Source: Capillimicrobium parvum
Lineage (GTDB): Bacteria > Actinomycetota > Thermoleophilia > Solirubrobacterales > Solirubrobacteraceae
NCBI RefSeq assembly: GCF_021172045.1
Contig: NZ_CP087164.1
Coordinates: 3,100,001-3,164,000, forward strand
Length of the DNA: 64,000 bases
Reading direction: 5' to 3'
The position numbers and the translations under genes were made by a program. This document shows positions 43,774 through 58,593 of the stretch, piece after piece; position 1 is the first letter of the stretch, and each line of letters opens with the position of its first letter. The notes under the pieces are model-generated. The model was given only the letters and a program-made list of their open reading frames with translations, searched no databases and was not told the DNA's origin.

Positions 43774-45132
43774 CTAACGCGTCGCCGCGGCCAGCAGCGA
43801 CATCTCGCCGGCCAGCGTCTGCGACGTGGCGCCGGTGATGGCGACCGCCACGATGTCCCCCGGCTCGGCCAGCCCGTCGAAGTTGACGACCTTGTTGTGG
43901 CTGGTCCGGCCCCGCAGGCGGCGCGGGTCGTGCCGTGAGGGGCCCTCGACGAGCACGTCGAGCGTGCGGCCGACGAAGCGCTGGGCGCGCTCGCGGGCGC
44001 GCCGCTGCACCACCTCGACGAGCCGCTCCATCCGCGCGGCCTTCACCTCGTGCGCCACGTCGTCGGCCATCTCGCCCGCGAGCGTGCCGCGCCGCGGCGA
44101 GAAGATGAACGTGAACGCGCCGTCGTAGCCGACCTCCTCGACGACTTCGAGGGTCTGTTCGAAGTCGGCCTCGGTCTCGCCGGGGAAGCCGACGATGACG
44201 TCGGTCGTCAGCGCGACGTCGGGCACGTGGCGGCGGATCATCTCGACGCGATCGAGGTACCGCTCGCGCGTGTACGTCCGGCGCATCGCCTTGAGGATCG
44301 CCGACGATCCGGCCTGCAGCGGCAGGTGGATGTGCTGGCAGACGCTCGGTAGCTCGGCGTGGGCGAGGACGACATCCTCGCGCATGTCCTTCGGGTGCGG
44401 GCTCGTGTAGCGGATGCGGTCGAGCCCGTCGATCGCGTCGAGCTCGCGCAGCAGCGCACTGAAATCGACCCTCGGTCGCAGATCGCGTCCGTACGAGTTG
44501 ACGTTCTGGCCGAGCAGCGTGATCTCCCGGACGCCGTCGGCGACGACCGCGCGCGCCTCGTCGACCAGCTCGCCGAGCGGTCGCGACACCTCGCGCCCGC
44601 GGGTCGAGGGGACGATGCAGTACGAGCAGTTGCAGTTGCAGCCGACCGAGATCTGCATCCACGCCTGGAACTCCCGCGCGCGTTTCATCGGCAGGTGGCC
44701 GGTGAAGCCCTCGAACTCGAAGTATCCCTGGGCGGACAGCGACTCGCTCGTCAGGAACTCAGCCAGCCGATGCACCTGCCCCGGCCCGAACGCGACGTCG
44801 ACGAACGGGAACTGGCGGAAGACGTCCTCCTTGACCGACTGCGCCCAGCAGCCCCCGACGCCGATGATGCGCTCCCGCTGCCCCCGCTTCAGCGCCTTGG
44901 CCTGGTGCAGGTGGCTGATGAAGCGCTCGTCGGCCTTCTCGCGGATCGAGCAGGTGTTGAACAGGATGAGATCGGCGTCCGCCGCCTCCCCGACCTCGGC
45001 GTACCCGAGCGACTCGAGCATGCCCTTCATGCGCTCGGAGTCGTGCTCGTTCATCTGGCAGCCGAACGTGGTGACGTGAAAGCGCTTCTGCGTTGCGGGC
45101 ACGGCCATGTCGAACACGAAGCGTAGAGCCAT
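43774..45132 (-). CDS. miaB: tRNA-2-methylthio-N6-dimethylallyladenosine synthase
   Basis: About 452 residues. The UPF0004 domain has Cys in VTTFGCQMNEHDSERM, LFNTCSIREKADE and GVGGCWAQSVKED; the radical SAM cluster is SVGCNCNCSYCIVPSTRGRE (C-x3-C-x2-C); the TRAM domain is near GRTSHNKVVNFDGLAEPGDI. It methylthiolates i6A37 made by MiaA. ATG 45132 is chosen because GGAG lies 8 bp upstream; ATG 45108 (MAVPATQKRF) is a shorter alternative. Frame continuing further upstream runs through degenerate sequence. Confidence 0.93.
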   Translation of the reverse strand: MALRFVFDMAVPATQKRFHVTTFGCQMNEHDSERMKGMLESLGYAEVGEAADADLILFNTCSIREKADERFISHLHQAKALKRGQRERIIGVGGCWAQSVKEDVFRQFPFVDVAFGPGQVHRLAEFLTSESLSAQGYFEFEGFTGHLPMKRAREFQAWMQISVGCNCNCSYCIVPSTRGREVSRPLGELVDEARAVVADGVREITLLGQNVNSYGRDLRPRVDFSALLRELDAIDGLDRIRYTSPHPKDMREDVVLAHAELPSVCQHIHLPLQAGSSAILKAMRRTYTRERYLDRVEMIRRHVPDVALTTDVIVGFPGETEADFEQTLEVVEEVGYDGAFTFIFSPRRGTLAGEMADDVAHEVKAARMERLVEVVQRRARERAQRFVGRTLDVLVEGPSRHDPRRLRGRTSHNKVVNFDGLAEPGDIVAVAITGATSQTLAGEMSLLAAATR

Positions 45133-45267
45133 CGGAATCACTCCACGGGGGACGTCCAGCAGGTGCTTGACGCCGACTCCCCGTCGCACCCGGAGAAGAT
45201 CCGACGCTGGCACGAGCTCATCGCGAACGATCGTCCGCCGGGTCGAGCTCGTCGCCGGCGCGTCCGT

Positions 45268-45728
45268 GGTCAAGGCCGGCGAGCAGCTCGTGTCCTTCGG
45301 CGAGCGGCGCGCTGGCCGGAGGTGACGGCTCCTTCCATGAAGTCCGTCGTGCCGGTCTCCGCGCCGGCGAACACGATCCGGCCGATGGGGCGGCGCAGGG
45401 TCGCGCCGACGCTGCTCAGCGTGCAGGTCGGGACCTGGCTGCCGCAGCCTCTCGACCAGGGGTCGTCCTCCCAGTTGCGGACGTAGAACTCCTTCGGCGC
45501 CCGCGCCTTGGGCTCGAAGTACGTCTCGAGCGCTTCGAGCGTCAGCGCGCGGGTCGCCTCGTCGCTGGACGGGTCGCCGCCGTACCGGGCGAGCGCGGGC
45601 CCGCTGCCGAAGAACAGCGCGCACAGGATGCCTTCGTCTCCCTCGGTCGGCGACAGGTCCAGGACCAGTGGGATCGAGGCGAGCCCGGAGGCGACGCCGG
45701 CGAGGCCGTCCTCCCGCCACCAGGGTTG
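45268..45728 (-). pseudogene. Flavin monoamine oxidase, C-terminal remnant
   Basis: A start-less stretch reads PWWREDGLAGVASGLASIPL, then CALFFGSGPALARYGGDPSS, FYVRNWEDDPWSRGCGSQVP and GRIVFAGAETGTTDFMEGAV followed by TSGQRAAR. The D-P-W-S-R-G-C and A-G-x-E-T...G-A-x-x-S-G-x-R-A-A elements are the C-terminal FAD-binding signature of amine oxidases. The FAD-binding N-terminal half is missing, and near 45283-45300 the frame shifts: the expected tail HELLAGLDHG continues in another frame. It is a dead fragment. Confidence 0.75.
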
Positions 45729-45988
45729 ACGATCGCCGCGCTGCCCTCCACGAATCGGCCGGTCCAGACGGCGCCGAAATTGCCAAGCGCGTCTACATCA
45801 CGATCGACCAGCAAGCGAGTGACGTCGAAGACTGGTTCTACGCCGTGATGGGAGCGTGCGGGGCCGCTTCTGTGCCCGTCTCCGCCGGCGACGCGCCTCG
45901 GGTCCGGTGCTGCGCGACCCGGACAGCCCGCGCGGCTGGGTACCGGCGGCCGATGGGTCGGCGACGCGGTCCTGAGCCGACCGCTGGA

Positions 45989-46081
45989 TCAGCCGGCGCC
46001 CTGTGCCCCCCAAGGGTTGGCGAGCAGCGCCAACTCGGGTTCGGCGGGGACGCGCACCTCCGCGGGCGGGAACGCCTCCGA
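45989..46081 (-). pseudogene. Short fragment resembling the FAH (fumarylacetoacetate hydrolase) fold
   Basis: About 30 residues, SEAFPPAEVRVPAEPELALL then ANPWG, directly follow the broken end of the alpha-hydroxy-acid oxidase and then stop. The V-P-x-E-P-E-L-A-L string resembles the segment before the metal site of FAH-family hydrolases. The piece is too short for certainty. Between it and the amine-oxidase fragment (45729-45988) I recognise nothing. Confidence 0.3.
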
Positions 46082-46094
46082 CCTCCACGCGGAT

Positions 46095-46853
46095 CCCCCC
46101 GGAGCGACGGATCCACGAGCGAACTGGACCGTTCGATCGTCCTACGCGGCATCGGCTCGGGAATGTGCGCGAATGCCGGCAGCCGCCCTCCCAGGAACTG
46201 TGACGTCCATGCGGGATGCCGCAGCCCGTCGATGATCGTCCGGGCCCCGATCGCCGGCGGCATGGTGAAGCCGTTGCGGGTGTCCCGCTCGCGGCCGCCA
46301 ACTGTCGGGGCGTCGGCGCCGACCAGCAGCGCCCGGTATCCCGCATCCCGCGCGCGTGTAACGATCTCGCGTGACAGGCCCCGGTCGCGCAGCATGTACA
46401 GCTGAAACCACAGCGGTCCCTGTGACGCCGCCGCGACGTCCTCGAGCGGCGTACTCGACATGGTGGAAACGGCGTAGGGCACCCCCGCAGCCGACGCGGC
46501 CCGGGCGACGTCTCGTTCTCCGCCATCACGGATCGCCCGCGTCAAGCCCGTGGGGGCAAGGGCGATCGGCAGGGCCGAGTCGCAGCCGAGTATCTCGGTG
46601 CGAAGATCGATCTCCGACACGTCGCGCATGACCCTCGGCACGAGCTCGAGCTCCTCAAGGGCGGCGCGGTTGCGGCGCACCGTCACCTCGTCCTCGCGCC
46701 ACCCTCGACGAAGTCGAAGACGGCGCGAGGGAGGAACCGCCGAGCCTCCGCACGCAGACCTCCGATGCTGTGACAGCGAGCGAGCCGCCGCCGGTCTCCG
46801 TCCGTGTCGAATGCGGGCCGTCTGATCAGCGCTACGAACTCGCGCACCGTCAC
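46095..46853 (-). pseudogene. FMN-dependent alpha-hydroxy-acid oxidase (LldD-like), frameshifted and truncated
   Basis: The N-terminus (GTG 46853) reads VTVREFVALIRRPAFDTDGD, then RRFLPRAVFDFVEGGA. One missing G near 46693 then causes ARTR and a stop, where the family has E-D-E. The main part continues in the next frame: VTVRRNRAALEELELVPRVM, LPIALAPTGLTRAI, LWFQLYMLRDRGLSREIV and LVGADAPTVGGRERDTRNGF. It breaks after SLVDPSL, before the FMN phosphate and catalytic His/Arg region. Intact relatives oxidise L-lactate or other 2-hydroxy acids. Confidence 0.85.
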
Positions 46854-47011
46854 GCGAACCCCGCCAAGCAACCCATGGTGCCGCTCATCGCGGCAAACGT
46901 AGAGGCGCCCCGTGCCGCCGGTACAGCGCAGCGTCCCAGCCAGTGAGACCGGCGCGGGCGTGGCGGGAGCCAACGGTTTGCCAGCGGCCCGCCACACGAC
47001 CACCGATCCGA

Positions 47012-47041
47012 CGCTCGGCGGGGAGACCCCCCCGCCGAGCG
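47012..47041. terminator. Strong hairpin downstream of the binding-protein gene
   Basis: A perfect 12-bp stem (CGCTCGGCGGGG with CCCCGCCGAGCG) and a 6-nt loop, about 100 bp after the end of the 47144 gene. It is a plausible terminator at the island's edge. The surrounding gap 46854-47143 contains no recognisable gene. Confidence 0.5.
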
Positions 47042-47143
47042 CCAGGCCGATGACGATGAAGGGCTGGACGTCCAGCCTGCTGGGCCCGTCGGCGAGGAGC
47101 CTGTCGAACTTCCCCCGCCGCGCGAGAGAAGATCGACAGACTC

Positions 47144-48532
47144 CTAGAGCCCCTGCTCCTGCTCGATCTTGCGCACCTTGGCGATCTGCGGATCGTCTGC
47201 CGTGACGTCGGCGCACTCGTCCTGGACGACCAGCTTGCCGGCCTTCGGCGTCAGCGTGCGCCCTGTGTTGTTGGGGATGTGCACGGGCGCCTTGCCGTAG
47301 TACCACGGCTTGCACACCAGGTCCGACTTGTAGCCCTTCGTGTCGAGCATCGCCTTGTTGACGCTCTCCTTGTCGATAGGACCGTCGATCGAGAGCAGCC
47401 GGTCGACGGTGAGCTTGGCCAGCACGAAGCCCATCTGACCGAACGACCCCACGGGCACCTTCGGGGCGTACTGATCGTGCACCTTGAGGTAGAGCTGGTT
47501 GTCCGGGCCCGTCGAGTCGACGGTGTTGACCTCGGCGTTGACCAGCAGCTTGCCCTCCCACTCCGGCCCCAGCGCCTGCGCCAGGAAGTCGGTGCTGCAC
47601 GTCGACGAGCAGCCCCACTTCACGCGGCCGGCCAGCCCCTGCTGCTGCGCGGCCTGCATGATCTTCAGCGCCTCGGGCGGCGTGAAGCCGAGCAGCACGC
47701 CGCCGTCAGCGCCCGCCTGCTGCACGAGCGTCAGGGCGATCGAGTTGGCGTCCTGGATCGGCACGTTCTCCTTCGCGAACACCATGGGGACCCCGGCGGC
47801 GTCGGCCACGGACTTGACCCCCTCCGCATACCACTCGGCGCCCGGCGTGCCTGCGGTCGCGAACACGAGCTTCTTGACGCCCTGCTTGATCAGCGCCTGC
47901 GCGCCGCCGTCCAGGCTGTAGCGCGGCCCGAGGTTGATCGAGGCGGAGTTGGGCGTCGAGAAGCACTCAGGGGCGACGCCGACGTTGGTCGTATAGAGGT
48001 CGTTGGCCTCGTAGAACGCGTGGTTCACGGCACAGTCGAGCAGCGAGAAGCTGCCGAGCATCCCCAACACCTTGTCGCTCGTGACGAGCTTTCTCGCCAG
48101 GCCGGCGATCTGCCCCGGATCGCTCTGCTCCTCCTCGACGATGTACTGGATCGGGCGACCCTTGATGCCGCCGTTGGAGTTGACGCAGTCGTAGAACGCC
48201 TGCGCCATGTTGGATGCATCGGTGAAGTCCGTGCCGGGCTGCTTGGTGACGATGGAGCCGATCTTGATCGGCTCCCCCGTGGCCTTCTGGCCGTTGCCAA
48301 GACCGCACTTCAACTCGCCGCCCGTGCTGGCTGTGGTCGACGCACCCGTGCTGGCCGTGGTCGACGCACCCGTGCTGGCCGTCGTGGACGCGGCGGTGCT
48401 CGCCGACGTCGCGGCGGTGGTGCCGGACTGGTTGTCGCTGCCGCCGCACGCCGCGAGCGCCGCGCTCGCCGCAAGCAGCGCCATCGCCGTCACCGCCCAC
48501 CGGACCCAGACCTGACCGGGATCTCTCCTCAT
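47144..48532 (-). CDS. ABC-type solute-binding lipoprotein (branched-chain amino acid/urea-like, Peripla_BP_6)
   Basis: A protein of 462 residues. The lipoprotein signal is WAVTAMALLAASAALAAC; a Ser/Thr/Ala repeat linker follows. The periplasmic-binding domain contains GEPIKIGSIVTKQPGTDFTD, GGIKGRPIQYIVEEEQSDPG, VLGMLGSFSLLDCAVNHAFY and KLVFATAGTPGAEWYAEGVK. Such proteins usually bind amino acids, amides or aromatic acids for a LivHMGF-type transporter, but no permease or ATPase gene is nearby. GAGGAGC precedes the ATG. The promoter (48639-48668) overlaps operator site 1, so it should respond to the island's regulator. Confidence 0.85.
   Translation of the reverse strand: MRRDPGQVWVRWAVTAMALLAASAALAACGGSDNQSGTTAATSASTAASTTASTGASTTASTGASTTASTGGELKCGLGNGQKATGEPIKIGSIVTKQPGTDFTDASNMAQAFYDCVNSNGGIKGRPIQYIVEEEQSDPGQIAGLARKLVTSDKVLGMLGSFSLLDCAVNHAFYEANDLYTTNVGVAPECFSTPNSASINLGPRYSLDGGAQALIKQGVKKLVFATAGTPGAEWYAEGVKSVADAAGVPMVFAKENVPIQDANSIALTLVQQAGADGGVLLGFTPPEALKIMQAAQQQGLAGRVKWGCSSTCSTDFLAQALGPEWEGKLLVNAEVNTVDSTGPDNQLYLKVHDQYAPKVPVGSFGQMGFVLAKLTVDRLLSIDGPIDKESVNKAMLDTKGYKSDLVCKPWYYGKAPVHIPNNTGRTLTPKAGKLVVQDECADVTADDPQIAKVRKIEQEQGL
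48321..48392 (-). repeat. Three 24-bp repeats coding for a Ser/Thr linker
   Basis: Copies at 48321-48344, 48345-48368 and 48369-48392 (first two differ at one base). They encode A-S-T-T-A-S-T-G-type linker units between the lipid anchor and binding domain. Confidence 0.8.
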
Positions 48533-48638
48533 CGCTCCTCCTCGTCTGCCTTGTGCGCCGGCGCGCGTGTGATCCGCTGCGCTGGGCGATCACGCCCGGA
48601 CGGCCGACTCACGGCCGCCGGCTGCGCTCACGGTGAGG

Positions 48639-48668
48639 ACCGTAGACAAAATCTGTACACGCTGTCAA
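48639..48668 (-). promoter_or_regulatory. Promoter of the solute-binding protein gene
   Basis: On the minus strand TTGACA (48663-48668), an 18-bp spacer and TACGGT (48639-48644). The -35 box lies inside operator site 1. Confidence 0.55.
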
Positions 48669-48669
48669 G
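48653..48669. promoter_or_regulatory. Operator site 1 of the catabolic island
   Basis: CTGTACACGCTGTCAAG. Its reverse complement matches site 2 (51862-51878) at 16 of 17 positions. It is an imperfect palindrome around ACA-nnn-TGT and lies between the divergent binding-protein and P450 genes. Confidence 0.65.
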
Positions 48670-48716
48670 CTAAGCGCCGACGGTCGCCACAACTTCGAGG
48701 AGGAGAGAGTCGCCCG

Positions 48717-49901
48717 ATGCCACCCGTCACCAGCGCCCCACCCACGCATGACCTGGATCTCTTCGCCGACGAGGTTCTCGTCGATCCGTATCCCGCGTAC
48801 GCGGAGCTGCGAGAGCTCGCCGGCGCCGTCCACCTGCCGGCCAACGACGTGTACGCGCTGACGCGCTACGACGTGATCCGCGGTGCGCTCGCGGACTGGG
48901 AGACGTTCTCGTCAGCCTCGATCGGGTTCAACCCGATGGTCAACGAGGCGCTCACCGGAACGTCGCTCGCGTCCGATCCACCGGTCCACACCCAGCTGCG
49001 AGCCGTCCTGACCGAGAACCTGACCCCGCGCGCCCTGCGCGGCCTGAAGGACACGATCGACGCGAAGGCCGACGCCCTCGTGGCCGGGCTCGTCGAGCGG
49101 CGCTCCTTCGAGGCGATCGACGCCCTCGCCCGGGCGTTCCCGCTCGAGGTCGTCGCCGACCTCATCGGCTTCACCGGCCAGGTCCGCGACAACATGCTGC
49201 GCTGGGGCCAGGCCGCGATGGAGGTCATCGGCCCGATGAACGCCCGCACCGCCGAGAACTTCCCCATCGCCGGCGAGCTCTACGGCTGGTGCTCGACCGT
49301 GACCGCCGACGACCTCGCGCCCGGCTCGGTGGGACGCGGCATCTTCGACGCCGAGGCGCGGGGCGACATCCCGCCGGACACGGCGGGCCACATCATCCAC
49401 CAGTACCTCGGCGCGGGCGTCGACACGACGGTCGCGGTGATCGGCAACGTCGTCGCGCTCCTCGGGAAGCATCCCGACCAGCTGGCGCTCGTCCGCCAGG
49501 ACCCTGCGCTCGTGCCGGCCGCGTTCAACGAGGTGCTCCGCTTCTGGCCGCCGATCCACGCCTGGGGCCGTCGCGCGACGAAGGACGTCGAGGTCGACGG
49601 CGTCGTCGTTCCCGCCGGCGCGCAGATCGCCATCCTCTTCGGCGCGGGCAACCACGACCCGCGCCACTACGAGAACCCGGACGACTTCCTGGTCGAGCGC
49701 AACCCTGTCGACCACCTCACGTTCGGCTACGGGGTCCACGGCTGCGCGGGCCAGGGACTCGCCCGCATGGAGGGGCACGCCGTGATCGCGGCGCTGGCCC
49801 GGCACGCCGAGCGGCTCGTGGTCGGCGACGAGGCGCGCGTTCCGAGCAACATCACCCGGAGCATCCACGAGCTCCCCGTCCTGGAAGTGGTGCGAGCATG
49901 A
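48717..49901 (+). CDS. Cytochrome P450
   Basis: A protein of 394 residues, soluble bacterial type. The I-helix oxygen-binding motif is LGAGVDTT (231-238), the K-helix E-x-x-R is EVLR (272-275), and the heme ligand is Cys343 in FGYGVHGCAGQGLARME. ATG 48717 follows GAGGAGAGAG, a clear ribosome binding site. It should hydroxylate, epoxidise or dealkylate the island's substrate, receiving electrons from the next two genes. The ferredoxin ATG overlaps its stop (ATGA). It is divergent from the solute-binding protein across operator site 1. Confidence 0.95.
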   Translation: MPPVTSAPPTHDLDLFADEVLVDPYPAYAELRELAGAVHLPANDVYALTRYDVIRGALADWETFSSASIGFNPMVNEALTGTSLASDPPVHTQLRAVLTENLTPRALRGLKDTIDAKADALVAGLVERRSFEAIDALARAFPLEVVADLIGFTGQVRDNMLRWGQAAMEVIGPMNARTAENFPIAGELYGWCSTVTADDLAPGSVGRGIFDAEARGDIPPDTAGHIIHQYLGAGVDTTVAVIGNVVALLGKHPDQLALVRQDPALVPAAFNEVLRFWPPIHAWGRRATKDVEVDGVVVPAGAQIAILFGAGNHDPRHYENPDDFLVERNPVDHLTFGYGVHGCAGQGLARMEGHAVIAALARHAERLVVGDEARVPSNITRSIHELPVLEVVRA

Positions 49902-50086
49902 AGATCGTCCTCGATCGAGCCCGCTGTGAGGGTCACGGCCTGTGCGAGGAGGCCGCCCCGGACCTGATGCACCTCGACGACGATGGCGAGCTGGTGATCG
50001 ACCGCGAGGAGATCACCGAGGCCGAGCTGGCCGCCGCGAACGCCGCCGTGCGGGTATGCCCGGTGGCGGCACTGCGGATCGAATGA
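49898..50086 (+). CDS. Small ferredoxin with C-x-x-H-x-x-C cluster motif
   Basis: A protein of 62 residues. The cluster residues are C10, H13 and C16 in CEGHGLC, then C54 in VRVCPVAAL. A histidine replaces the second cysteine of the standard 4Fe-4S motif, as in the P450-partner ferredoxins of actinobacteria that carry 3Fe-4S or His-ligated clusters. Its position between the P450 and its reductase leaves little doubt about its role. Both ends overlap neighbours by ATGA. Confidence 0.95.
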   Translation: MKIVLDRARCEGHGLCEEAAPDLMHLDDDGELVIDREEITEAELAAANAAVRVCPVAALRIE

Positions 50087-51243
50087 GCGCCGCCGCGATC
50101 AGGCGGATCGTCGTCGTCGGCAACGGGATCGCCGGCCTGACGGCCGCGGACTCGCTGCGCGGCGCGGGGTTCGACGGCGAGCTGACGATCATCGGCGACG
50201 AGCGCCATCCGGCCTGCAGCCGCCCGGCTCTGTCGAAGGCACTGCTCAGCGACTGCGCCGACCTGACGTCCCATCAGCTGCCCGCACCGACGCACGGCGC
50301 GCTCGAGATCGCCGGTCGTCGTGCCTGCGGGCTCGACGCCGAGCGCCGGCGCGTGGCCCTCGACGATGGCACCGAGCTGCCCTACGACCGGCTCGTGGTG
50401 GCCACGGGCTCGCGCGCGCGTCGCCTGTCCGACCTGGCCGGCGAGCTCACCCTGCGTGGGCTCGACGACGCGCTCGCCCTGCGCGAGCGCCTCGCCGCAC
50501 GGCCGTCGGTCGTCGTCGTCGGAGGCGGACCGCTCGGCATGGAGGTCGCGTCGGGCTGCGTGGCCGCCCGCTGCCAGGTGACGGTCGTCTCTCAGGGCAT
50601 GCCACTCGAGATGCAGCTGGGCCCGCACCTCGCCAGGGTCTTCGCCGAGGCCGCGCAGGGTCGGGGCGTCGCCCTCGTGCAGACCGAGTCGGCGCGCCTG
50701 GAGGAGCACGGCGGCGCGACGAGGGTCGTCCTCGAGGAGGACATCGTCCTGGAGGCGGAGCTCGTCGTCTCTGCCGTCGGCGACGTCCCGAACACGGAGT
50801 GGCTGGCCGGCACGAGCCTCGTCACCGACGGCGTCGTCCGCGTCGACGCCCGCGGGCTCGCACGACCGGACGTCGCGGCCGTCGGAGACCTCGCCGTCTT
50901 CCCGACGCCGTACGGCATGCGGCGGATCCCGCTGTGGAGCACCGCGATCGCGCACAGCAAGGTGGCGGCCGCGGCGCTCGTCCACGGCGAGGCGGCGCCG
51001 CCGCTGCAGTTCCAGCCGTACTTCTGGACCGAGCAGTTCGGGCTGAGCCTCAAGGCCGTCGGGTTCCTGCCGCTGAACGGCCCGCCCGTCTATGTCGACG
51101 GCGGGCCCGGAGGCCCCGCGCTGATGCGCTGGACCCACGAGGACGGCCGCGGCGCCGCGGCCGCGCTGAACTACCGGATCCCGATCCCGCGGTTGCGGCG
51201 GATCACGGAGGACGCGGCTACCGGCGCTCGCCGAGCAGCGTGA
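50083..51243 (+). CDS. NAD(P)H-ferredoxin reductase (FAD)
   Basis: A protein of 386 residues of the putidaredoxin-reductase/rubredoxin-reductase type. FAD motif IVVVGNGIAGLTAADSLRGA, then RHPACSRPALSKALL, LVVATGSRARRL, the NAD(P) motif SVVVVGGGPLGMEVASG and AAVGDLAVFPT. The C-terminal domain contains FWTEQFGLSLKAVGFL. It passes electrons from NAD(P)H to the ferredoxin. Its last 26 bp overlap the convergent TetR gene. Confidence 0.95.
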   Translation: MSAAAIRRIVVVGNGIAGLTAADSLRGAGFDGELTIIGDERHPACSRPALSKALLSDCADLTSHQLPAPTHGALEIAGRRACGLDAERRRVALDDGTELPYDRLVVATGSRARRLSDLAGELTLRGLDDALALRERLAARPSVVVVGGGPLGMEVASGCVAARCQVTVVSQGMPLEMQLGPHLARVFAEAAQGRGVALVQTESARLEEHGGATRVVLEEDIVLEAELVVSAVGDVPNTEWLAGTSLVTDGVVRVDARGLARPDVAAVGDLAVFPTPYGMRRIPLWSTAIAHSKVAAAALVHGEAAPPLQFQPYFWTEQFGLSLKAVGFLPLNGPPVYVDGGPGGPALMRWTHEDGRGAAAALNYRIPIPRLRRITEDAATGARRAA

Positions 51244-51832
51244 CCCACGTCTCGGTGAGGAGATCGAGCTCCGGCCCGCTGTCGAGGTCCCACGGGTCGC
51301 GCATCCAGTGCAGCGCCGTCCGGTCGAGGGTCTCCATCGCGAGAAAGCCGCGGAAGTGGCGTGTCTCGGGAGCGTGGCGGTCGGCGAGGTTCATGCCGTC
51401 GACCATGTCGCCGATGACCTCCTCGAACCACCCCTCGTAGAGCTGGCGGATCTCCGGATCGACGGCGGCGGCCTGGGTGCTGACGAGGATGTACGGCTTG
51501 ATCTGCGGCCACCTCGAGGCCTGCGTCGCGAGCCAGGGCTTCAGCGCGGCGGCGGTCCCGATCTGCACCGCCTCGACCAGCTTCGACGCGGTCGAGCCGT
51601 GCGCCTCCGAGGTGTGGCGGTCGAGGAGCTCGTTGAGCTCGTCGATGAGCGCCACCATGACGTCGCGCTTGCCGGGGAAGCGCGCGTAGAACGTCACCCG
51701 CGTCGTCCCGGCCCGGGCGGCGATCTCCTCGACGGTGGTCGCCACATAGCCCTTCTGCTGGAACAGCGCGAGTGCCGTCTCGAGGATCTGCTTCCGCGTC
51801 CGCTCCTTGCGCAGTGCGCGGAGGCCGGTCAT
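51218..51832 (-). CDS. TetR-family regulator of the catabolic island
   Basis: A protein of 204 residues. LRKERTRKQILETALALFQQ, then KGYVATTVEEIAARAGTTRV and TFYARFPGKRDVMVALI are the DNA-binding helices. The rest is a ligand-binding domain (LATQASRWPQIKPYILVS, YEGWFEEVIGDMVDGMNL). The ATG at 51832 lies 30 bp from operator site 2; GTG 51841 is an alternative. Its place between the two operons, divergent from one and tail-to-tail with the other, makes it the likely repressor acting at both operator sites, with a pathway compound as inducer. Confidence 0.9.
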   Translation of the reverse strand: MTGLRALRKERTRKQILETALALFQQKGYVATTVEEIAARAGTTRVTFYARFPGKRDVMVALIDELNELLDRHTSEAHGSTASKLVEAVQIGTAAALKPWLATQASRWPQIKPYILVSTQAAAVDPEIRQLYEGWFEEVIGDMVDGMNLADRHAPETRHFRGFLAMETLDRTALHWMRDPWDLDSGPELDLLTETWVTLLGERR

Positions 51833-51861
51833 GCGGGGCACCTTAACGAACGACGCGTTTT

Positions 51862-51878
51862 CTTGACAGCGTGTAAAG
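51862..51878. promoter_or_regulatory. Operator site 2 of the catabolic island
   Basis: CTTGACAGCGTGTAAAG, an imperfect palindrome (C-T-T-n-A-C-A-n-n-n-T-G-T-n-A-A-G, 6 of 8 base pairs symmetric). It sits between TetR and the hydrolase operon. Confidence 0.7.
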
Positions 51879-51892
51879 CGTTTGCGTATCTT
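51863..51892 (+). promoter_or_regulatory. Promoter of the hydrolase operon, leaderless
   Basis: TTGACA (51863-51868), an 18-bp spacer and TATCTT (51887-51892), then 7 bp to the GTG at 51900. The -35 box is inside operator site 2, so a bound repressor would block RNA polymerase. Confidence 0.7.
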
Positions 51893-51899
51893 CGAGACC

Positions 51900-52871
51900 G
51901 TGAACAAGAGGGTCAACACCGTTCTCGGTCCCGTTGCGGCCGACGAGCTCGGGGTCGTCGCGGTCCACGAGGCGCTGCTCTCGGTCATCCCCGGAGCGGA
52001 GCACGCATACGACGTCACCATCGATCGCGCCGCTATCTTCGAGCGTCTCGCCGGCAAGCTGGACGAGTTCCGCCGCCACGGCGGCGGGACGATCGTGGAC
52101 AGCACGGGCATGTTCCACGGCCGTGACGTCCGGCTGTACGAGGCCCTCTCGCGCTCGACGGGCGTGCACATCGTCGCGTCGACGGGCATGGGCCCGGAGG
52201 AGATGCTCGGCGGGTACTTCCTCACGCCGCAGACGAATCCGCCGACCCCCTGGTCGGCGGAGATGTTCGCCGACCTCTTCGCCAGGGAGGTCACCGAGGG
52301 CATGGTGGTCCCGCGGGTCGAGCGGCGCGGCGGGGCCGGGCTCGTCGCCACGGCCGCCGACCGAGCGGGCATGACGGCCACCGAGGAGAGCCTGTTCCGG
52401 GGCGCCGCCCAGGCGGCCCTCGCCACCGGGGTTCCGGTCTCCATCCGCTACGGGGCCGATGCGGTGCGCGAGCTCGACATCGTCCTGGGCGAGCGCCTGC
52501 CTGCCGGCCGGGTCGTCGTCGGCGGCCTGGACCGCACGGACGCCGCAGGCAGCGGAGCCCCGCTCGACGTGGCGCGCCGGGGCGCGTTCGTCGCGCTCGA
52601 CCACGTCGGCCGCGACGACGACGGCGCCTACCTGACCGACCGCGACCGGGCCGCGCTCGTGGCTGAGCTGGTCGACGCAGGCCACGCGGACCGCATCCTG
52701 CTTTCTAGCAGCGCGATCGGCGCGGCCAAGGGCCAACCGGACGACGCACTGCCCTACAGCCATGTCCTGTCCGGCTTCGTGCCGCTCCTGATGTCGCACG
52801 GGCTCGGCGACGCGGATGTCCGGCGCCTCCTGGTGGACAACCCGCGCGAGCTGCTGTCCACGGTCTCCTGA
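51900..52871 (+). CDS. Phosphotriesterase-family paralogue lacking the metal ligands (probable pseudoenzyme)
   Basis: A protein of 323 residues that aligns along its length with the next gene product (VNTVLGPVAADELGVVAVHE versus VNTVLGPIPTEELGFVAVHE; ending LLVDNPRELLSTVS versus LFVDNPASFLTIQS). The family binds two metals through H-x-H, a carboxylated Lys, two His and an Asp. Here H23 remains, but the other positions are A25, A150, R183, G209 and S271. It therefore cannot hold the usual binuclear site. The frame is intact and it is first in the operon, so it is unlikely to be a simple pseudogene; a structural partner or sensor role is possible. Confidence 0.85.
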   Translation: MNKRVNTVLGPVAADELGVVAVHEALLSVIPGAEHAYDVTIDRAAIFERLAGKLDEFRRHGGGTIVDSTGMFHGRDVRLYEALSRSTGVHIVASTGMGPEEMLGGYFLTPQTNPPTPWSAEMFADLFAREVTEGMVVPRVERRGGAGLVATAADRAGMTATEESLFRGAAQAALATGVPVSIRYGADAVRELDIVLGERLPAGRVVVGGLDRTDAAGSGAPLDVARRGAFVALDHVGRDDDGAYLTDRDRAALVAELVDAGHADRILLSSSAIGAAKGQPDDALPYSHVLSGFVPLLMSHGLGDADVRRLLVDNPRELLSTVS

Positions 52872-52882
52872 AGGGGCATGTC

Positions 52883-53836
52883 GTGTCGAGAGTGAACACC
52901 GTCCTGGGGCCCATCCCGACCGAGGAGCTCGGGTTCGTGGCGGTCCACGAGCACATCGGGTACGGCATGCCCGGCTGCGAGCTGGACACGAAGTGGTGGA
53001 AGACGCCGGAGGAGCGCTACGAGGAGACCGTCCCGAAGCTGCGCCGGTTCCACGAGTACGGGGGCGGGACCTTCGTCGATGCCACCGGCATCTGCAACGG
53101 CCGCGACGTCGACTACTACAAGTCGCTGGCGGCCAGGACCGGTGTGCACATCGTCGCCTGCACCGGGTTCGTCGGCGGCGACACCGCGCTTGCGTTCTTC
53201 GCCCGGGCGAGCGTCGAGTACCTGACCCGGCAGTTCGTCCACGAGATCACCGTCGGCATCGGCGACACCGGCAGCAAGGCGGGCATCATCAAGGTGGGCG
53301 TCAGTCGCGGCTTTCGCATGACGGACCTCGACAAGCGCATCTACCGGGCCGCCGCCCGCGCCGCGGTCACCACGGGCGTGCCCATCTTCACGCACCTCGC
53401 CGTCGACTCGGAGCCGGCGATCGACATCTTCCGCGAGGAGGGCCTCTCGCTCGACCGGGTCCTCTTCGGGCACGCCGACGATGGCGTGAGCCAGGGGAAG
53501 GTGCGTGACACCGAGATCGCCGACCAGGGCGGCCGGATCGGCTTCGACACCTTCGGCTACGACCTCGAGCTGCCCGACCCGCCGTTCTGGGGGCGCCCGC
53601 GCAAGGAGCGGCTCGATCACCTCCTGCGCTTCATCCGCGGTGGCTATCTCGATCGGGTGCTGGCCTCGGCCGACGCCAACTGCAGCCCGCTGGGGTGGCC
53701 GGGCGTCAAGGGGCACACCGTGAACTACCTCTTCGAGGAGCTCATCCCCGACCTGCGAGAGGCCGGGATCGACGAGGCGACGATCACCACGCTGTTCGTC
53801 GACAACCCGGCCAGCTTCCTCACGATCCAGAGCTAA
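52883..53836 (+). CDS. Phosphotriesterase-family metallohydrolase (lactonase/amidohydrolase-like)
   Basis: A protein of 317 residues. All metal ligands are visible: H22 and H24 (VHEH), K137 (GIIKVGVS, the carboxylated lysine), H171 (IFTHLAV), H197 (LFGHADD) and D264 (ASADAN). The start V-N-T-V-L-G-P-I and end L-F-V-D-N-P-A-S-F-L are standard. Family members hydrolyse lactones, esters, amides or organophosphates. AAGGGGC precedes the GTG start. It lies 11 bp after its degenerate paralogue, so both are made together. Confidence 0.92.
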   Translation: MSRVNTVLGPIPTEELGFVAVHEHIGYGMPGCELDTKWWKTPEERYEETVPKLRRFHEYGGGTFVDATGICNGRDVDYYKSLAARTGVHIVACTGFVGGDTALAFFARASVEYLTRQFVHEITVGIGDTGSKAGIIKVGVSRGFRMTDLDKRIYRAAARAAVTTGVPIFTHLAVDSEPAIDIFREEGLSLDRVLFGHADDGVSQGKVRDTEIADQGGRIGFDTFGYDLELPDPPFWGRPRKERLDHLLRFIRGGYLDRVLASADANCSPLGWPGVKGHTVNYLFEELIPDLREAGIDEATITTLFVDNPASFLTIQS

Positions 53837-53848
53837 GGGCAAGGAACC

Positions 53849-54955
53849 ATGCACCCCTCAGACCTGAAGGACCTGAAGGTCGCCGTCGTGGGCGGCGGGT
53901 ACGGCGGCGCCGCCGCCGCCGCGGCGCTGCGCAACATCGGCGTGGGCGACGTCCACGTGTACGAACGGGCGGCCGCGGTTCGCGAGGTCGGCGCCGGCAT
54001 CGGCCTGCGTCCGGCGACGGTGGAGCTGTTCCGCAAGTGGGGCATCTACGAGGCGATCGCCGCGGTGACCTCGCCCAGCGACTCCTTCGAGATCCTCACC
54101 GCCACCGGCCACGTCCTCCACCGCGAGGAATGGCCTGCCTCCGAGCACGAGACCAAGACCCGCTTCGTCCACCGCGACGACTTCATCAACGCGTTCCTCG
54201 ACGTCCTGCCCGCGGGCATGCTGCACATCGGCCGGCGGGTGACCGGCATCGAGGACGGCACGGAGCGCGCGACGGTGGTCTTCGCCGATGGGGCGTCGGT
54301 GACCGCGGATCTCGTGATCGGGGCGGACGGCATCCGCTCGCTCGTGCGCCAGCAGCTGTTCTCCGACGTTCCCCCCGTGTTCTCGGAATCCCACGCCTAC
54401 CGGGCGGTGATCTCCGCCGACGACACCTACGGTATGACGATCGACGACAACCTACGCCTCTACATCGGCGACAACGGCACGACGATCTACTTCCTGCCCC
54501 TGCGCCACCGCAACCAGGTGTCCTTCGACATCACGGCACCCTCCGCCGATGCATCCTGGTCCCCCGAGATCACCAAGGCCGACCTCATGCGGCTGGTCGA
54601 GGGCTTCGACGAGCGGCTGCAGAGCATCACGCGTGACCTGGACATGGACCTGGTCACGAGCCGGGCGGTGTACGACATCGACCCGATCGACACCTGGCAC
54701 ACGGACTGCGTCGCCCTGCTCGGCGATGCGGCGCACGCGATGCTCCACCATCAGGGCCAGGGCGCGAACTCGGCCATCACCGACGCCGGCGCCCTGGCTG
54801 ACGCCCTGGTCAAGGCGGACTCGGTCAAGGCGGCGCTGGTCGAGTACCAGGCGGTCCGCAAGCCGGTGACCGACGAGCTGCAGCGCATCTCCCGGCTGGG
54901 CTGGGACGCCGGAGCCGTCGAGACGGCGTTCCCCGGCCAGAAGGGTGCGGAGTAG
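53849..54955 (+). CDS. FAD-dependent monooxygenase (group A, salicylate-hydroxylase-like)
   Basis: A protein of 368 residues. FAD motif VAVVGGGYGGAAAAAALRNI, the D-G motif DLVIGADGIRSLVRQQLF, and the G-D motif VALLGDAAHAMLHHQGQGAN. The middle domain contains RAVISADDTYGMTIDDNLRL. Group A enzymes hydroxylate aromatic rings or oxidise activated rings with NAD(P)H and oxygen. Its place after a lactonase-like hydrolase suggests it works on a hydrolysis product. 12 bp separate it from the upstream gene. Confidence 0.92.
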   Translation: MHPSDLKDLKVAVVGGGYGGAAAAAALRNIGVGDVHVYERAAAVREVGAGIGLRPATVELFRKWGIYEAIAAVTSPSDSFEILTATGHVLHREEWPASEHETKTRFVHRDDFINAFLDVLPAGMLHIGRRVTGIEDGTERATVVFADGASVTADLVIGADGIRSLVRQQLFSDVPPVFSESHAYRAVISADDTYGMTIDDNLRLYIGDNGTTIYFLPLRHRNQVSFDITAPSADASWSPEITKADLMRLVEGFDERLQSITRDLDMDLVTSRAVYDIDPIDTWHTDCVALLGDAAHAMLHHQGQGANSAITDAGALADALVKADSVKAALVEYQAVRKPVTDELQRISRLGWDAGAVETAFPGQKGAE

Positions 54956-54959
54956 CGCC

Positions 54960-55850
54960 ATGCCCCTGCACCCTGAAGTCGCCCGGGTCGTCGTCACGAT
55001 GCCCGCACCGCCCGACGAGCTTGACCCGGTGGCGATGCGCGCCGACCAGGAGGCACACGTGCCGCCCCTCGACGAGCGCCTCCCGCTGGCCGCGGTGCAG
55101 GACGCGACCGCGGGTGACGTGCCGGTGCGGATCTACACGCCGACCGGCGCCGACGGCTGGCTCGTGTACATCCACGGCGGCGCGTTCTTCCTCGGCAGCC
55201 TCGACACCCACGACCATGTCGCTCGATCGCTGGCCGAGGCGACCGGGGCCACGGTGGTCTCCGTCGGCTATCGCCTGGCGCCGGAGGCGCCATACCCGGC
55301 GGGTCTCGACGACTGCTACGCCGTGGTCCGGTGGATGGCCGAGCACGGCAGGACGATGGCGATCGCCGGCGACAGCTCGGGCGCGAACTTCGTCGCCGCC
55401 GTCGCCGCGATGGCGCACGACGACGACCTCGACGCCATCACCGATCAGATCCTCTACTACCCCTCACTCGACCTGGACTTCGACCCGGACCGCTACGCCT
55501 CCCTGCGCGAGAACGCCGTCGGCTACGGGCTGGAGACCGTGGGGCTGAAGCCCTTCAACGCCTTCTACGTCGACAGCGGCGCGGACCCGGCGGATCCGCT
55601 CGTCTCCCCCATCAAGCGCGCAGACCTGACCGGGCTGCCGCGCGCCCTCGTCGTGACCGCCGAATATGACCCCATGCGCGACGAGGGGGAGCTGTACGCG
55701 CGACGGCTGAGCGAGGCCGGCGTGGATGTCGTGCTCAGCCGGTACGCCGGCGCCGGCCACGGCTTCGTCGAGCACTTCTCCTGGATCCCCGAGTTCCACC
55801 GGGTCTTCGAGGAGACGCGCGACTTCCTCGATCGGACGAGCACACCATGA
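54960..55850 (+). CDS. Alpha/beta hydrolase (hormone-sensitive-lipase family esterase)
   Basis: A protein of 296 residues. Oxyanion-hole motif LVYIHGGAFFLGSLDTH (H-G-G-A at 72-75), nucleophile Ser139 in IAGDSSGANF, an acid in VVTAEYDPMRDEGELYARRL and the His in GAGHGFVEHFS. This is a complete family IV esterase triad. It should cleave an ester of small or medium size. A GGAG stretch precedes the ATG, and its end overlaps the MBL gene (ATGA). Confidence 0.93.
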   Translation: MPLHPEVARVVVTMPAPPDELDPVAMRADQEAHVPPLDERLPLAAVQDATAGDVPVRIYTPTGADGWLVYIHGGAFFLGSLDTHDHVARSLAEATGATVVSVGYRLAPEAPYPAGLDDCYAVVRWMAEHGRTMAIAGDSSGANFVAAVAAMAHDDDLDAITDQILYYPSLDLDFDPDRYASLRENAVGYGLETVGLKPFNAFYVDSGADPADPLVSPIKRADLTGLPRALVVTAEYDPMRDEGELYARRLSEAGVDVVLSRYAGAGHGFVEHFSWIPEFHRVFEETRDFLDRTSTP

Positions 55851-56779
55851 CGCAGCCGGCGAGCATCCATCCGCTGCCCGCGCGGTGGGGCGACTTCACG
55901 CTGGGCAGCTACTTCATCGCCGCGCCCGAGCCGGCCATCGTCGACACCGGGATCGCCTCGACGCCGGCCGAGGTGATCGCTCCTCGGCTCGAGGAGCTCG
56001 GGCACCGGGTCGAGGACGTCCGCTGGATCCTGCTGACGCACGGCCACATCGACCATGTCGGCGGCGCCCATGCGCTCTGGGAGCTCACGGGTCGCCGCGC
56101 GCAGGTCGTGATCCACGAGGCCGATGCGCCGTTCCTGCGTTCGCGCCGGGCGCATGTCGACGAGTACGTCGGCGGCCGTCAGCGCTATCTGCGGGATCCG
56201 AACGGCGTCGCGCAGCTGACGCGGGCCACCGAGGCGGTGATATCGGGAGAGATGGAGCCATCCGTGGTCCTGACGGGAGGCGAGACGCTCTCCCTCGGCG
56301 GGGAGGTGTCGGTCTCGGTCCACCATGTGCCGGGTCACACGGCGGGAGCGGTCGCGTACGTCGTCGACGGCTCCAACGACGTGTTCGTCGGCGACGCCGT
56401 GGAGATCAACGGCGGCAACGGCTTTCCGACCTACGAGGACCCGGTCGGCTATCGCGCCGGCCTGGAGCACCTGCGCGACGTCGTACGCCCGAACCGCATG
56501 TTCCTGGGCCACCCGTTCGTCGGCCGGGACGGGGTGCCCTACAGCATCGAGCTCGACCGCGAGGCGGCGCAGCGGGCGCTGCAGGAGAGCCTGGACATCG
56601 AGGCGCGCATCGCCGGGCTTGCAGCGCGCTGTCTGGCCGACGGCCTGCAGGAGACCGACTCGGTCTACTCGCCGTTCGCGCTGGTCGCCGAAGAGCTCGG
56701 CTACGAGCGCGATCCGAGCCTGGAGCCGTCGCCGTTCTTCACCACGCTGCACGGCTATCGGCAGGCGGCTCGCGCATGA
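55847..56779 (+). CDS. Metallo-beta-lactamase-fold hydrolase
   Basis: A protein of 310 residues. Metal-site motifs: LLTHGHIDHVGGA (H-x-H-x-D-H), HHVPGHTAGAVAYV, VFVGDAVEI and MFLGHPFVG. All binuclear ligands are present. Related proteins act as lactonases, thioesterases or glyoxalase II. The C-terminal third is helical and contains PFALVAEELGYERDPSLEPS. It overlaps both neighbours by ATGA. Confidence 0.9.
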   Translation: MTQPASIHPLPARWGDFTLGSYFIAAPEPAIVDTGIASTPAEVIAPRLEELGHRVEDVRWILLTHGHIDHVGGAHALWELTGRRAQVVIHEADAPFLRSRRAHVDEYVGGRQRYLRDPNGVAQLTRATEAVISGEMEPSVVLTGGETLSLGGEVSVSVHHVPGHTAGAVAYVVDGSNDVFVGDAVEINGGNGFPTYEDPVGYRAGLEHLRDVVRPNRMFLGHPFVGRDGVPYSIELDREAAQRALQESLDIEARIAGLAARCLADGLQETDSVYSPFALVAEELGYERDPSLEPSPFFTTLHGYRQAARA

Positions 56780-58458
56780 CGGAGATCACGATTCGCAAGG
56801 ACCTACAGGTCGCGATGCGCGACGGGGTCATGCTCGCGGTCGACGTCTACCAGGGAACCGAGGACAAGCCGCGGCCTGCGCTCGTCGCGATGAGCCCCTA
56901 CGGCAAGGACCTCCAGGCGCAGTCGCTCGAGCTCCCGCCGCAGCGGCGTCCCAGCCCGCTGTGGGACGGCTGCCTCGAGGCCGGGGACATCGCGCGCATC
57001 GTCGCCGAGGACTACGCCCACGTGATCGCCGATCTGCGCGGGTCCGGCGCGTCCGGCGGCGAGATGGTCGGCAACTACAACGCCGGCGGCGTCCCGCTCG
57101 GCCAGGACGCCTACGACCTCATCGAATGGGTCGCGCAGCAGCCGTGGTGCGACGGCAACGTCGGCATGGTCGGGGTCTCCTACTTCGCCTCCATGCAGGT
57201 GTTCGCCGCCGCCGAGCGGCCCCCGCATCTGAAGGCGATCTTCGTGAGCGGCGGCCACTACGACTTCTACGAGACCACCTACCACGGCGGCATCATGTGG
57301 TTCATGCCGCGCGCCGCCCGAGAGGGCCGCGGCGGCGACTCCGGCATCGCCGTCGCGGACGTCAGGTCGCGCATGCTCGCGGAGTACTCGGCGGAGGAGG
57401 TCGCGCAGCGCGTGGCGGCACGGCTCGCCGACCCCGACGTCAAGCGGTGGCCGACCCTGGAGCACGTCCTGCGGTACCCGAAGAACCGCGAGCTGTGGTT
57501 CGACATCGTCCTCAACGAGCTCGACGGCGACTGGTACGAGGAGCGCAACCCCATCACGCTCGCCCGGAACATCGACATCCCCGTCTATGTGCAGATCAAC
57601 TGGGGTCGCGGCTGGACGGTCGACGGCAGCATCGAGCTCTTCAAGACGCTCAAGGGCCCGAAGAAGCTCGACCTGCTGCCCTACCCGCCGATGCAGGAGC
57701 GCCCGTTTCACGAGGTCCACGGCGACATGTTCCGCTGGTACGACCACTGGCTGAAGGGCGTCGAGAACGGCGTGATGGACGAGCCGGCCGTCAGCATCTT
57801 CGTCGAGGGCACGCGCGAGCGGGTGACCGTCGACGACTGGCCGCCCCAGGGGGTCGAGCATCGGCCGCTGTACCTGCGTCCCCGGCGCAAGCTGTCGGCG
57901 ACGCCCGAACCGCTGGACACCGAGTGGGCCGCCCCGGACGGCTTCTACCAGGCGCCCCTGACCGTGACGGACAAGGTGGAGATGCTGACGTGGTCCACCG
58001 AGCCGTTCGAGGCGACGACGCAGATGGTCGGCACCGGCGCCGCCCATCTCTTCGTGGAGATCGACACCGACGACACGAATCTCATCCTGCGTCTGTGGGA
58101 CGAGGCTCCGGGCGGCGGTCGTCAGCTCGTCACGACCGGCTACCTCAAGGCATCGCATCGCGAGCTCGACGACCGCACCACGGAGGGCAACCCCTACCAC
58201 CCGCACACCCGTGCCGTGCCGGTCGAGCCCGGGCGCGTCGAGGAGTACGTGGTCCGGCTGTATCCGTTCGCCAACGCCTTCCGACCGGACCATCGCCTCG
58301 TGGTCGAGTTGTCGTGCAACGAGCCGCTGGTCGACGCCCACAACTCGCTGCTGCCCCCCGAGGCGATGCACCTGCCGTCCGGGCGCGCGACGGGCCACAA
58401 GATCTACCGCGATGCGACGCACCATTCGCGGCTCGTGCTGCCCTTCACGACCGACTGA
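56776..58458 (+). CDS. CocE/NonD-type hydrolase (X-Pro dipeptidyl-peptidase S15 family)
   Basis: A protein of 560 residues. The N-terminal alpha/beta-hydrolase domain has VAMRDGVMLAVDVYQG, YAHVIADLRGSGASGGEM and the nucleophile Ser135 in GMVGVSYFASMQVF. FHEVHGDMFRWYDHWLKGVE holds the probable catalytic His. The C-terminal jelly-roll (LYLRPRRKLSATPEP onward, about 375-560) is the S15 domain. CocE enzymes hydrolyse bulky esters (cocaine-like), others hydrolyse amides. It ends the operon. Confidence 0.92.
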   Translation: MTEITIRKDLQVAMRDGVMLAVDVYQGTEDKPRPALVAMSPYGKDLQAQSLELPPQRRPSPLWDGCLEAGDIARIVAEDYAHVIADLRGSGASGGEMVGNYNAGGVPLGQDAYDLIEWVAQQPWCDGNVGMVGVSYFASMQVFAAAERPPHLKAIFVSGGHYDFYETTYHGGIMWFMPRAAREGRGGDSGIAVADVRSRMLAEYSAEEVAQRVAARLADPDVKRWPTLEHVLRYPKNRELWFDIVLNELDGDWYEERNPITLARNIDIPVYVQINWGRGWTVDGSIELFKTLKGPKKLDLLPYPPMQERPFHEVHGDMFRWYDHWLKGVENGVMDEPAVSIFVEGTRERVTVDDWPPQGVEHRPLYLRPRRKLSATPEPLDTEWAAPDGFYQAPLTVTDKVEMLTWSTEPFEATTQMVGTGAAHLFVEIDTDDTNLILRLWDEAPGGGRQLVTTGYLKASHRELDDRTTEGNPYHPHTRAVPVEPGRVEEYVVRLYPFANAFRPDHRLVVELSCNEPLVDAHNSLLPPEAMHLPSGRATGHKIYRDATHHSRLVLPFTTD

Positions 58459-58593
58459 CCGTGACGCCCCGGCCGAGCGCTCAACCAACGACAGCGACCG
58501 CCTCCGGGGCAGGGAGCTCCGCTCACGACGCCTGCCGCCCGCTCCCGCCGCCTGCGGCATCGGATGAGCAGGCCGTCTGAGCGACCGCTCCTT

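Follow-up and report, generated by a model that had tools for sequence, protein, structure and literature searches.

A TetR-family regulator and a pair of 17-bp operator-like sites predicted to control a P450–phosphotriesterase gene cluster in Capillimicrobium parvum

We analyzed a stretch of 64,000 nucleotides (the window, G000:C1:3100001-3164000) of the Capillimicrobium parvum genome, which is 5.95 Mb in a single contig. The window holds two nearly identical 17-bp palindromes, sites A and B, in the divergent gaps of a catabolic gene cluster that also encodes a TetR-family regulator. This TetR protein very probably represses both operons of the cluster, as well as itself, through sites A and B until a compound of the pathway releases it. 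Below, the operon following site A is called the P450 operon (cytochrome P450, ferredoxin, reductase), and the one following site B is named after its first gene, PTE1, of the phosphotriesterase (PTE) family. On the other side of site A lies a gene for a periplasmic substrate-binding protein (SBP). See Table 1 for all features.

Two matching sites in two divergent gaps

A first-pass annotation of the window had described a pair of 17-bp sequences in reverse orientation with one mismatch, in two divergent gaps 3.2 kb apart. Both sites were found at the stated positions, one in the SBP/P450 gap and one in the TetR/PTE1 gap, and sequence comparison shows that they agree at 16 of 17 positions in opposite orientation. 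Such pairs are rare by chance. With up to 3 mismatches allowed, 64-kb shuffles gave 0.02 matches per shuffle, and none of 100 shuffles contained two matches.

The same annotation expected matches in the genome to be confined to this island. This holds for CTTNACANNNTGTNNAG, whose only exact matches are sites A and B, but the literal pattern CTTnACAnnnTGTnAAG is matched exactly at site B alone and is one letter off at site A. A shorter core has its sole exact match in the genome at site B, and with one mismatch it becomes unspecific (33 forward matches vs 22 for a control). The case for site A therefore draws on other features: it agrees with site B at 16 of 17 positions, lies in front of the P450 operon, and shows the promoter geometry described below.

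The palindrome accompanies the same cluster in other genomes

No close relatives of the TetR protein were present in the same genus, family, order, or class, where the best full-length match had 29% identity, so the comparison used remote hosts. Scanning genome contigs for TetR relatives with the single sequence gave no matches. A three-row alignment used as the query yielded 80 TetR loci from Actinomycetota and Burkholderiaceae, most of which carry the cluster. The common genes are a P450 system, two PTE-family proteins, a flavin adenine dinucleotide (FAD) monooxygenase, and three hydrolases. TetR relatives beside the cluster in these two groups are 47–59% identical to the window protein, with the same palindrome in the same promoters. 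A plasmid search also identified a relative in Caballeronia insecticola (53%) with the whole cluster. Here, CTTTACACGATGTAAAG, an exact match to the CTTnACAnnnTGTnAAG pattern, lies between TetR and P450. The end of the site is 47 bases from the annotated P450 start codon in this plasmid and 48 bases from it at site A.

We counted motifs in the 350 bp upstream of the genes, allowing up to 2 mismatches. They were present at 47 of 66 PTE1, 28 of 70 TetR, and 20 of 44 P450 loci, whereas permuted-palindrome controls gave means of 0.88, 0.29, and 0.97, respectively. Occasional control maxima reached 24, 12, and 24, presumably from permutations that still lie near the motif. Per-position information is high in the TTnAC and GTnAA arms and low at the center and in most of the flanks. 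By a matrix compiled from 64 distinct sites outside this genome, the two best places in the window are, in this order, site B (27.4 bits) and site A (19.9 bits), and third place scores 9.9 bits.

Among the near matches elsewhere in the genome that we examined, which were found with patterns, CTTGACAACATGTCAGG at G000:C1:1351832 (L005:1501-1517) outscores site A at 22.0 bits. We considered it as a third target and rejected it. It is flanked by a MarR gene on one side and a SnoaL-like gene on the other, both named from reading their translations, and a MarR operator with a likeness to the TetR sites is the more probable identity. The remaining near matches in this set score 17 bits or less, and several fall within coding frames.

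Exact matches occur once or twice per record in eight other genomes or records, 12 sites in total, and 11 of the 12 lie at or beside the cluster by position. The twelfth, in Amycolatopsis acidicola (G770:C38:7987-8003), is on a contig away from that organism’s cluster locus, L045. Microbacterium elymi has two exact sites 9.8 kb apart, one at each end of the cluster, in the same bracketing layout as the window. The second of these (L031:121-137) is found past the cluster’s other end, ahead of an additional FAD monooxygenase gene (297-2126). In several actinomycete loci that we read closely, a gene for an MFS-type transporter stands between PTE1 and TetR or adjoins PTE1, and the sites are arranged around it.

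Several observations weigh against reading the sites as TetR operators. The matrix sites were gathered with the pattern of the first-pass annotation and are thus not wholly independent of it. The loci are interrelated and many are from Streptomyces, so the counts overstate independence. The share of TetR upstream regions with a site, just 28 of 70, is low. The P450 operon is placed separately in Nocardia, Nonomuraea, Micromonospora, and others, where only weak lookalikes precede it. Finally, no related locus has a match to the SBP, which is not a target that other copies of the cluster share.

A weak lookalike (e.g., ATTCACATCGATCAAAC) recurs 40–44 bp upstream of the separate P450 gene in L042, L045, L054, L068, and L083. 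This could be a degenerate site, or another regulator may use it.

The proposal of the first-pass annotation, a two-target TetR repressor whose sites mark the regulon boundaries, is therefore supported, with two qualifications. The palindrome precedes PTE1, TetR, and/or P450 together with the cluster in dozens of genomes, and the exact CTTNACANNNTGTNNAG matches of this genome are limited to the two sites. Other genomes do not share the SBP as a target, and in many actinomycetes a separate P450 operon is without a good site.

A predicted promoter is built into each site

The TTGACA -35 box and 18-bp spacer previously assigned to both sites are confirmed, as TTGACA-18-TATCTT for site B on the forward strand and TTGACA-18-TACGGT for site A on the reverse strand. 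The PTE1 promoter is the sole promoter-like match in 7.5 kb. Its -10 box is followed after only 7 bp by the PTE1 GTG, and the PTE1 transcript is therefore probably leaderless.

Promoter spacing offers a test that is independent of the pattern-based site collection, unlike the matrix. Among 46 distinct PTE1 sites of other genomes, 96% have xAnnnT (A and T at -10 positions 2 and 6) exactly 18 bp past the -35-like hexamer TTGACR within the operator, compared to 0–4% of the same sites at other spacings from 12 to 26 bp. Site B on the forward strand and site A on the reverse strand obey this 18-bp rule, and the opposite direction of each site does not fit it. Therefore, the operator and -35 box appear to be one element, with the embedded promoter of site A facing the SBP gene. 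The -10 letters of site A, TACGGT, are identical to those of the PTE1 promoters in L097 and L102. As the predicted operators overlap -35 elements across these PTE1 promoters, TetR binding could block RNA polymerase.

A shared TTGACA with an 18-bp spacer would also be seen if the sites were merely similar sigma-70 promoters, or a copied promoter, with no operator role. We consider this very improbable, as the palindrome is conserved along its full length across phyla with differing flanks, and this extends to the TGTnAAG half, which falls within the spacer. Furthermore, the -35-like half in Burkholderiaceae is TTTACA, meaning that the palindrome is kept rather than a consensus -35, and the sites track the TetR gene. 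The same geometry bears on the sign of regulation. A minority of TetR-family proteins act as activators, and TetR could in principle activate from sites A and B. However, 96% of the PTE1 promoters that we examined have their -35 box under the operator, where repressors typically bind, and activation here is hardly credible.

TetR is the candidate binder

The window TetR groups with proteins from Microbacterium and Burkholderiaceae in a tree (support 98/85). The TetR clade around this group has nine members, each of them with the motif. The recognition-helix region TTRVTFY is common to almost all of the TetR relatives. None of the named TetR groups (KstR, FasR, AcrR, ScbR, and others) reached its NCBIfam curated cut-off; the best was ScbR, at 56 bits vs 150.

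Among TetR relatives that lack the cluster, five have a strong upstream site (L029, L037, L056, L060, and L103; E values of 5e-8 to 2e-5 per region), nine others have no strong upstream site (one is borderline), and the motif was found upstream of 0 of 20 distant TetR control genes. A plasmid TetR of Streptomyces NBC_01643 (50%) has neither the cluster nor a strong site within its locus. The presence of the motif before relatives without the cluster points to TetR as the binder.

Could the sites instead be operators for a different protein, one that happens to regulate this cluster? The assignment to TetR is drawn from sequence, MarR proteins use similar palindromes, and the one further good site in the genome sits in a MarR divergent gap. 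We nevertheless think this quite improbable given the motif before the five cluster-less relatives, its presence in TetR gaps of many families, and the fact that we saw no further regulator gene as a constant member of the cluster.

Site A, the SBP gene, and the genomic island

We take TetR to act at both sites, and the targets of site A need separate attention. The conserved target appears to be the P450 operon, and the embedded promoter is predicted to serve the SBP gene, a duplicated host gene. It is possible, if somewhat doubtful, that site A governs one side alone. The position relative to P450 is conserved in Burkholderiaceae, which favors the P450 side, and the -35/18/-10 geometry occurs in the SBP direction only, which favors the other. 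However, where two divergent promoters share a gap of 184 bp, a single operator would normally act on both. In addition, the P450 and PTE operons lie within one conserved cluster, and no other copy of the cluster has an SBP beside it, which speak against control of either side by itself.

Two tandem SBP genes at G000:C1:675775-678555, beside a complete Liv-type transporter, are paralogues of this SBP. DNA similarity to these paralogues spans 47150-48567 and ends before site A, and a decayed LivH permease remnant follows the SBP gene at 46986-47085. Because the similarity stops short of site A, the site probably arrived as part of the cluster, and its promoter would then have ended up in front of the SBP copy. 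We rejected the SBP as an original cluster member, as it has no match in related loci and is a copy of host genes.

The whole regulon is included in ~13 kb (~45100-58593) between miaB and rny. These two genes are neighbors in G006 and G005, ~40 bp apart in L146 and a few hundred bases apart in L147, with no cluster. In L148, they are ~1.5 kb apart, again with no cluster. Overall, they adjoin each other or nearly so in the relatives G006, G005, and G008. The ~45100-58593 segment thus appears to be a genomic island with an empty-site counterpart in relatives. Within the window, 45838-46686 is a frame resembling a flavin mononucleotide-dependent dehydrogenase and is truncated in appearance. At 41758-43317, the frame of a radical-SAM protein seems to hold an intein-like insert, and relatives match it in two pieces around the insert.

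Table 1. Sites, predicted promoters, and genes of the proposed regulon (window coordinates)
Feature	Position	Strand	Details
Operator site B (predicted)	51862-51878	+	CTTGACAGCGTGTAAAG; TetR/PTE1 divergent gap, 67 bp, between TetR start 51832 (-) and PTE1 GTG start 51900 (+)
Operator site A (predicted)	48653-48669	-	CTTGACAGCGTGTACAG; SBP/P450 divergent gap, 184 bp, between SBP start 48532 (-) and P450 start 48717 (+)
Promoter towards PTE1 (predicted)	51863-51892	+	-35 TTGACA 51863-51868 in site B; 18-bp spacer; -10 TATCTT 51887-51892
Promoter towards SBP (predicted)	48639-48668	-	-35 TTGACA 48663-48668 in site A; 18-bp spacer; -10 TACGGT 48639-48644
TetR-family regulator, 204 aa, proposed repressor	51218-51832	-	PF00440, E 5.6e-16, residues 16-61 (N-terminal helix-turn-helix)
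Cytochrome P450	48717-49901	+	PF00067; nearest solved structures CYP199
Ferredoxin, single cluster	49898-50086	+	PF13459
Ferredoxin reductase (FAD/NAD)	50083-51243	+	PF07992
PTE1, phosphotriesterase-family, heads second operon	51900-52871	+	PF02126
PTE2, phosphotriesterase-family	52883-53836	+	PF02126; nearest solved structures: parathion hydrolase and other PTE-family enzymes
FAD-dependent monooxygenase	53849-54955	+	PF01494
Alpha/beta hydrolase, hormone-sensitive-lipase type	54945-55850	+	PF07859
Metallo-beta-lactamase-fold hydrolase	55847-56779	+	PF00753
CocE/NonD-family hydrolase, ends second operon	56776-58458	+	TIGR00976, above its cut-off
Periplasmic SBP, probable extra target of site A, outside conserved cluster	47144-48532	-	PF13458

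Discussion

The layout in the window consists of one operator type, two sites, two operons, and one TetR gene, and in many actinomycetes the P450 operon is separate and lacks a good site. We propose that a TetR dimer would occupy each 17-bp palindrome, with the consensus CTTnACAnnnTGTnAAG, cover the -35 box of a sigma-70-type promoter, and exclude RNA polymerase. At site B, this would directly shut off the operon of PTE1, PTE2, the monooxygenase, and the hydrolases, and the TetR gene, which starts 29 bp away, would be shut by occlusion, giving autoregulation. At site A, the direct effect would be on the SBP promoter, and occlusion would silence the divergent P450-ferredoxin-reductase operon. 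A substrate or intermediate binding to the C-terminal domain of TetR would then turn on both operons together. TetR, operator, and operons may have moved as one module between genera and phyla. The sequences show the sites, their promoter geometry, their conservation with the cluster and with TetR, and how rare they are in genomes, from which we infer that TetR binds and represses, that it controls its own gene, that there is an inducer, and what site A does in each direction.

We found no paper on the cluster or the operator in the literature searched, with most subscription journals outside the reach of the search. Related systems are known, however. The camphor operon includes P450cam with its own ferredoxin and reductase. 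Its repressor in Pseudomonas putida, CamR, is a TetR homologue that the pathway substrate frees from its operator (PMC4592980), as we suppose for TetR here. CamR differs in its operator (CAGGCTCTATATCTGCGATATACTGAGCAT), in serving the camphor pathway, and in having no PTE operon. EdcR of Caenibius tardaugens, the TetR repressor of oestradiol degradation, lies within a catabolic cluster and controls two operons through a palindrome common to both promoters, as proposed here, but its operator, TnnCnnTACnAnTnGTAnnGnnA, overlaps the -10 box and the genes are those of an oestrogen pathway (PMC8700777). In Rhodococcus erythropolis, the TetR repressor QsdR is encoded upstream of the gene for the phosphotriesterase-like lactonase QsdA, which it represses, and a lactone releases it (PMC6262395). 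The qsd operon is small (lactonase and acyl-CoA ligase) and has no P450. SAV576 of Streptomyces avermitilis is a TetR protein that shares a divergent gap with a P450 gene, has several palindromic sites, and represses itself and the P450 (PMC3742746). In contrast to the window, its operator is CCRTACRVYGTATGS, the P450 is the self-sufficient CYP102D1, and the sites take other promoter positions.

The sites and TetR thus very probably form a real regulon of a well-known kind, and the regulon itself is probably undescribed. There is about an even chance that the P450 system, both PTE-family enzymes, the FAD monooxygenase, and the three hydrolases form an undescribed catabolic module that passes between Actinomycetota and Burkholderiaceae. 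The TetR repressor and a nearly unchanged 17-bp operator-promoter would move along, and in this genome the module would have captured a duplicated host SBP, now located behind the embedded promoter. Catechin as the substrate, a guess from the presence of Paraburkholderia oxyphila, found no support. An operator-driven reporter could reveal the inducer, and hence the substrate, of this pathway, which is not described in the papers searched. For a catabolic cluster of many soil bacteria in two phyla, a candidate regulator, operator, and promoter rule can now be defined from sequence, with one or two sites per genome.

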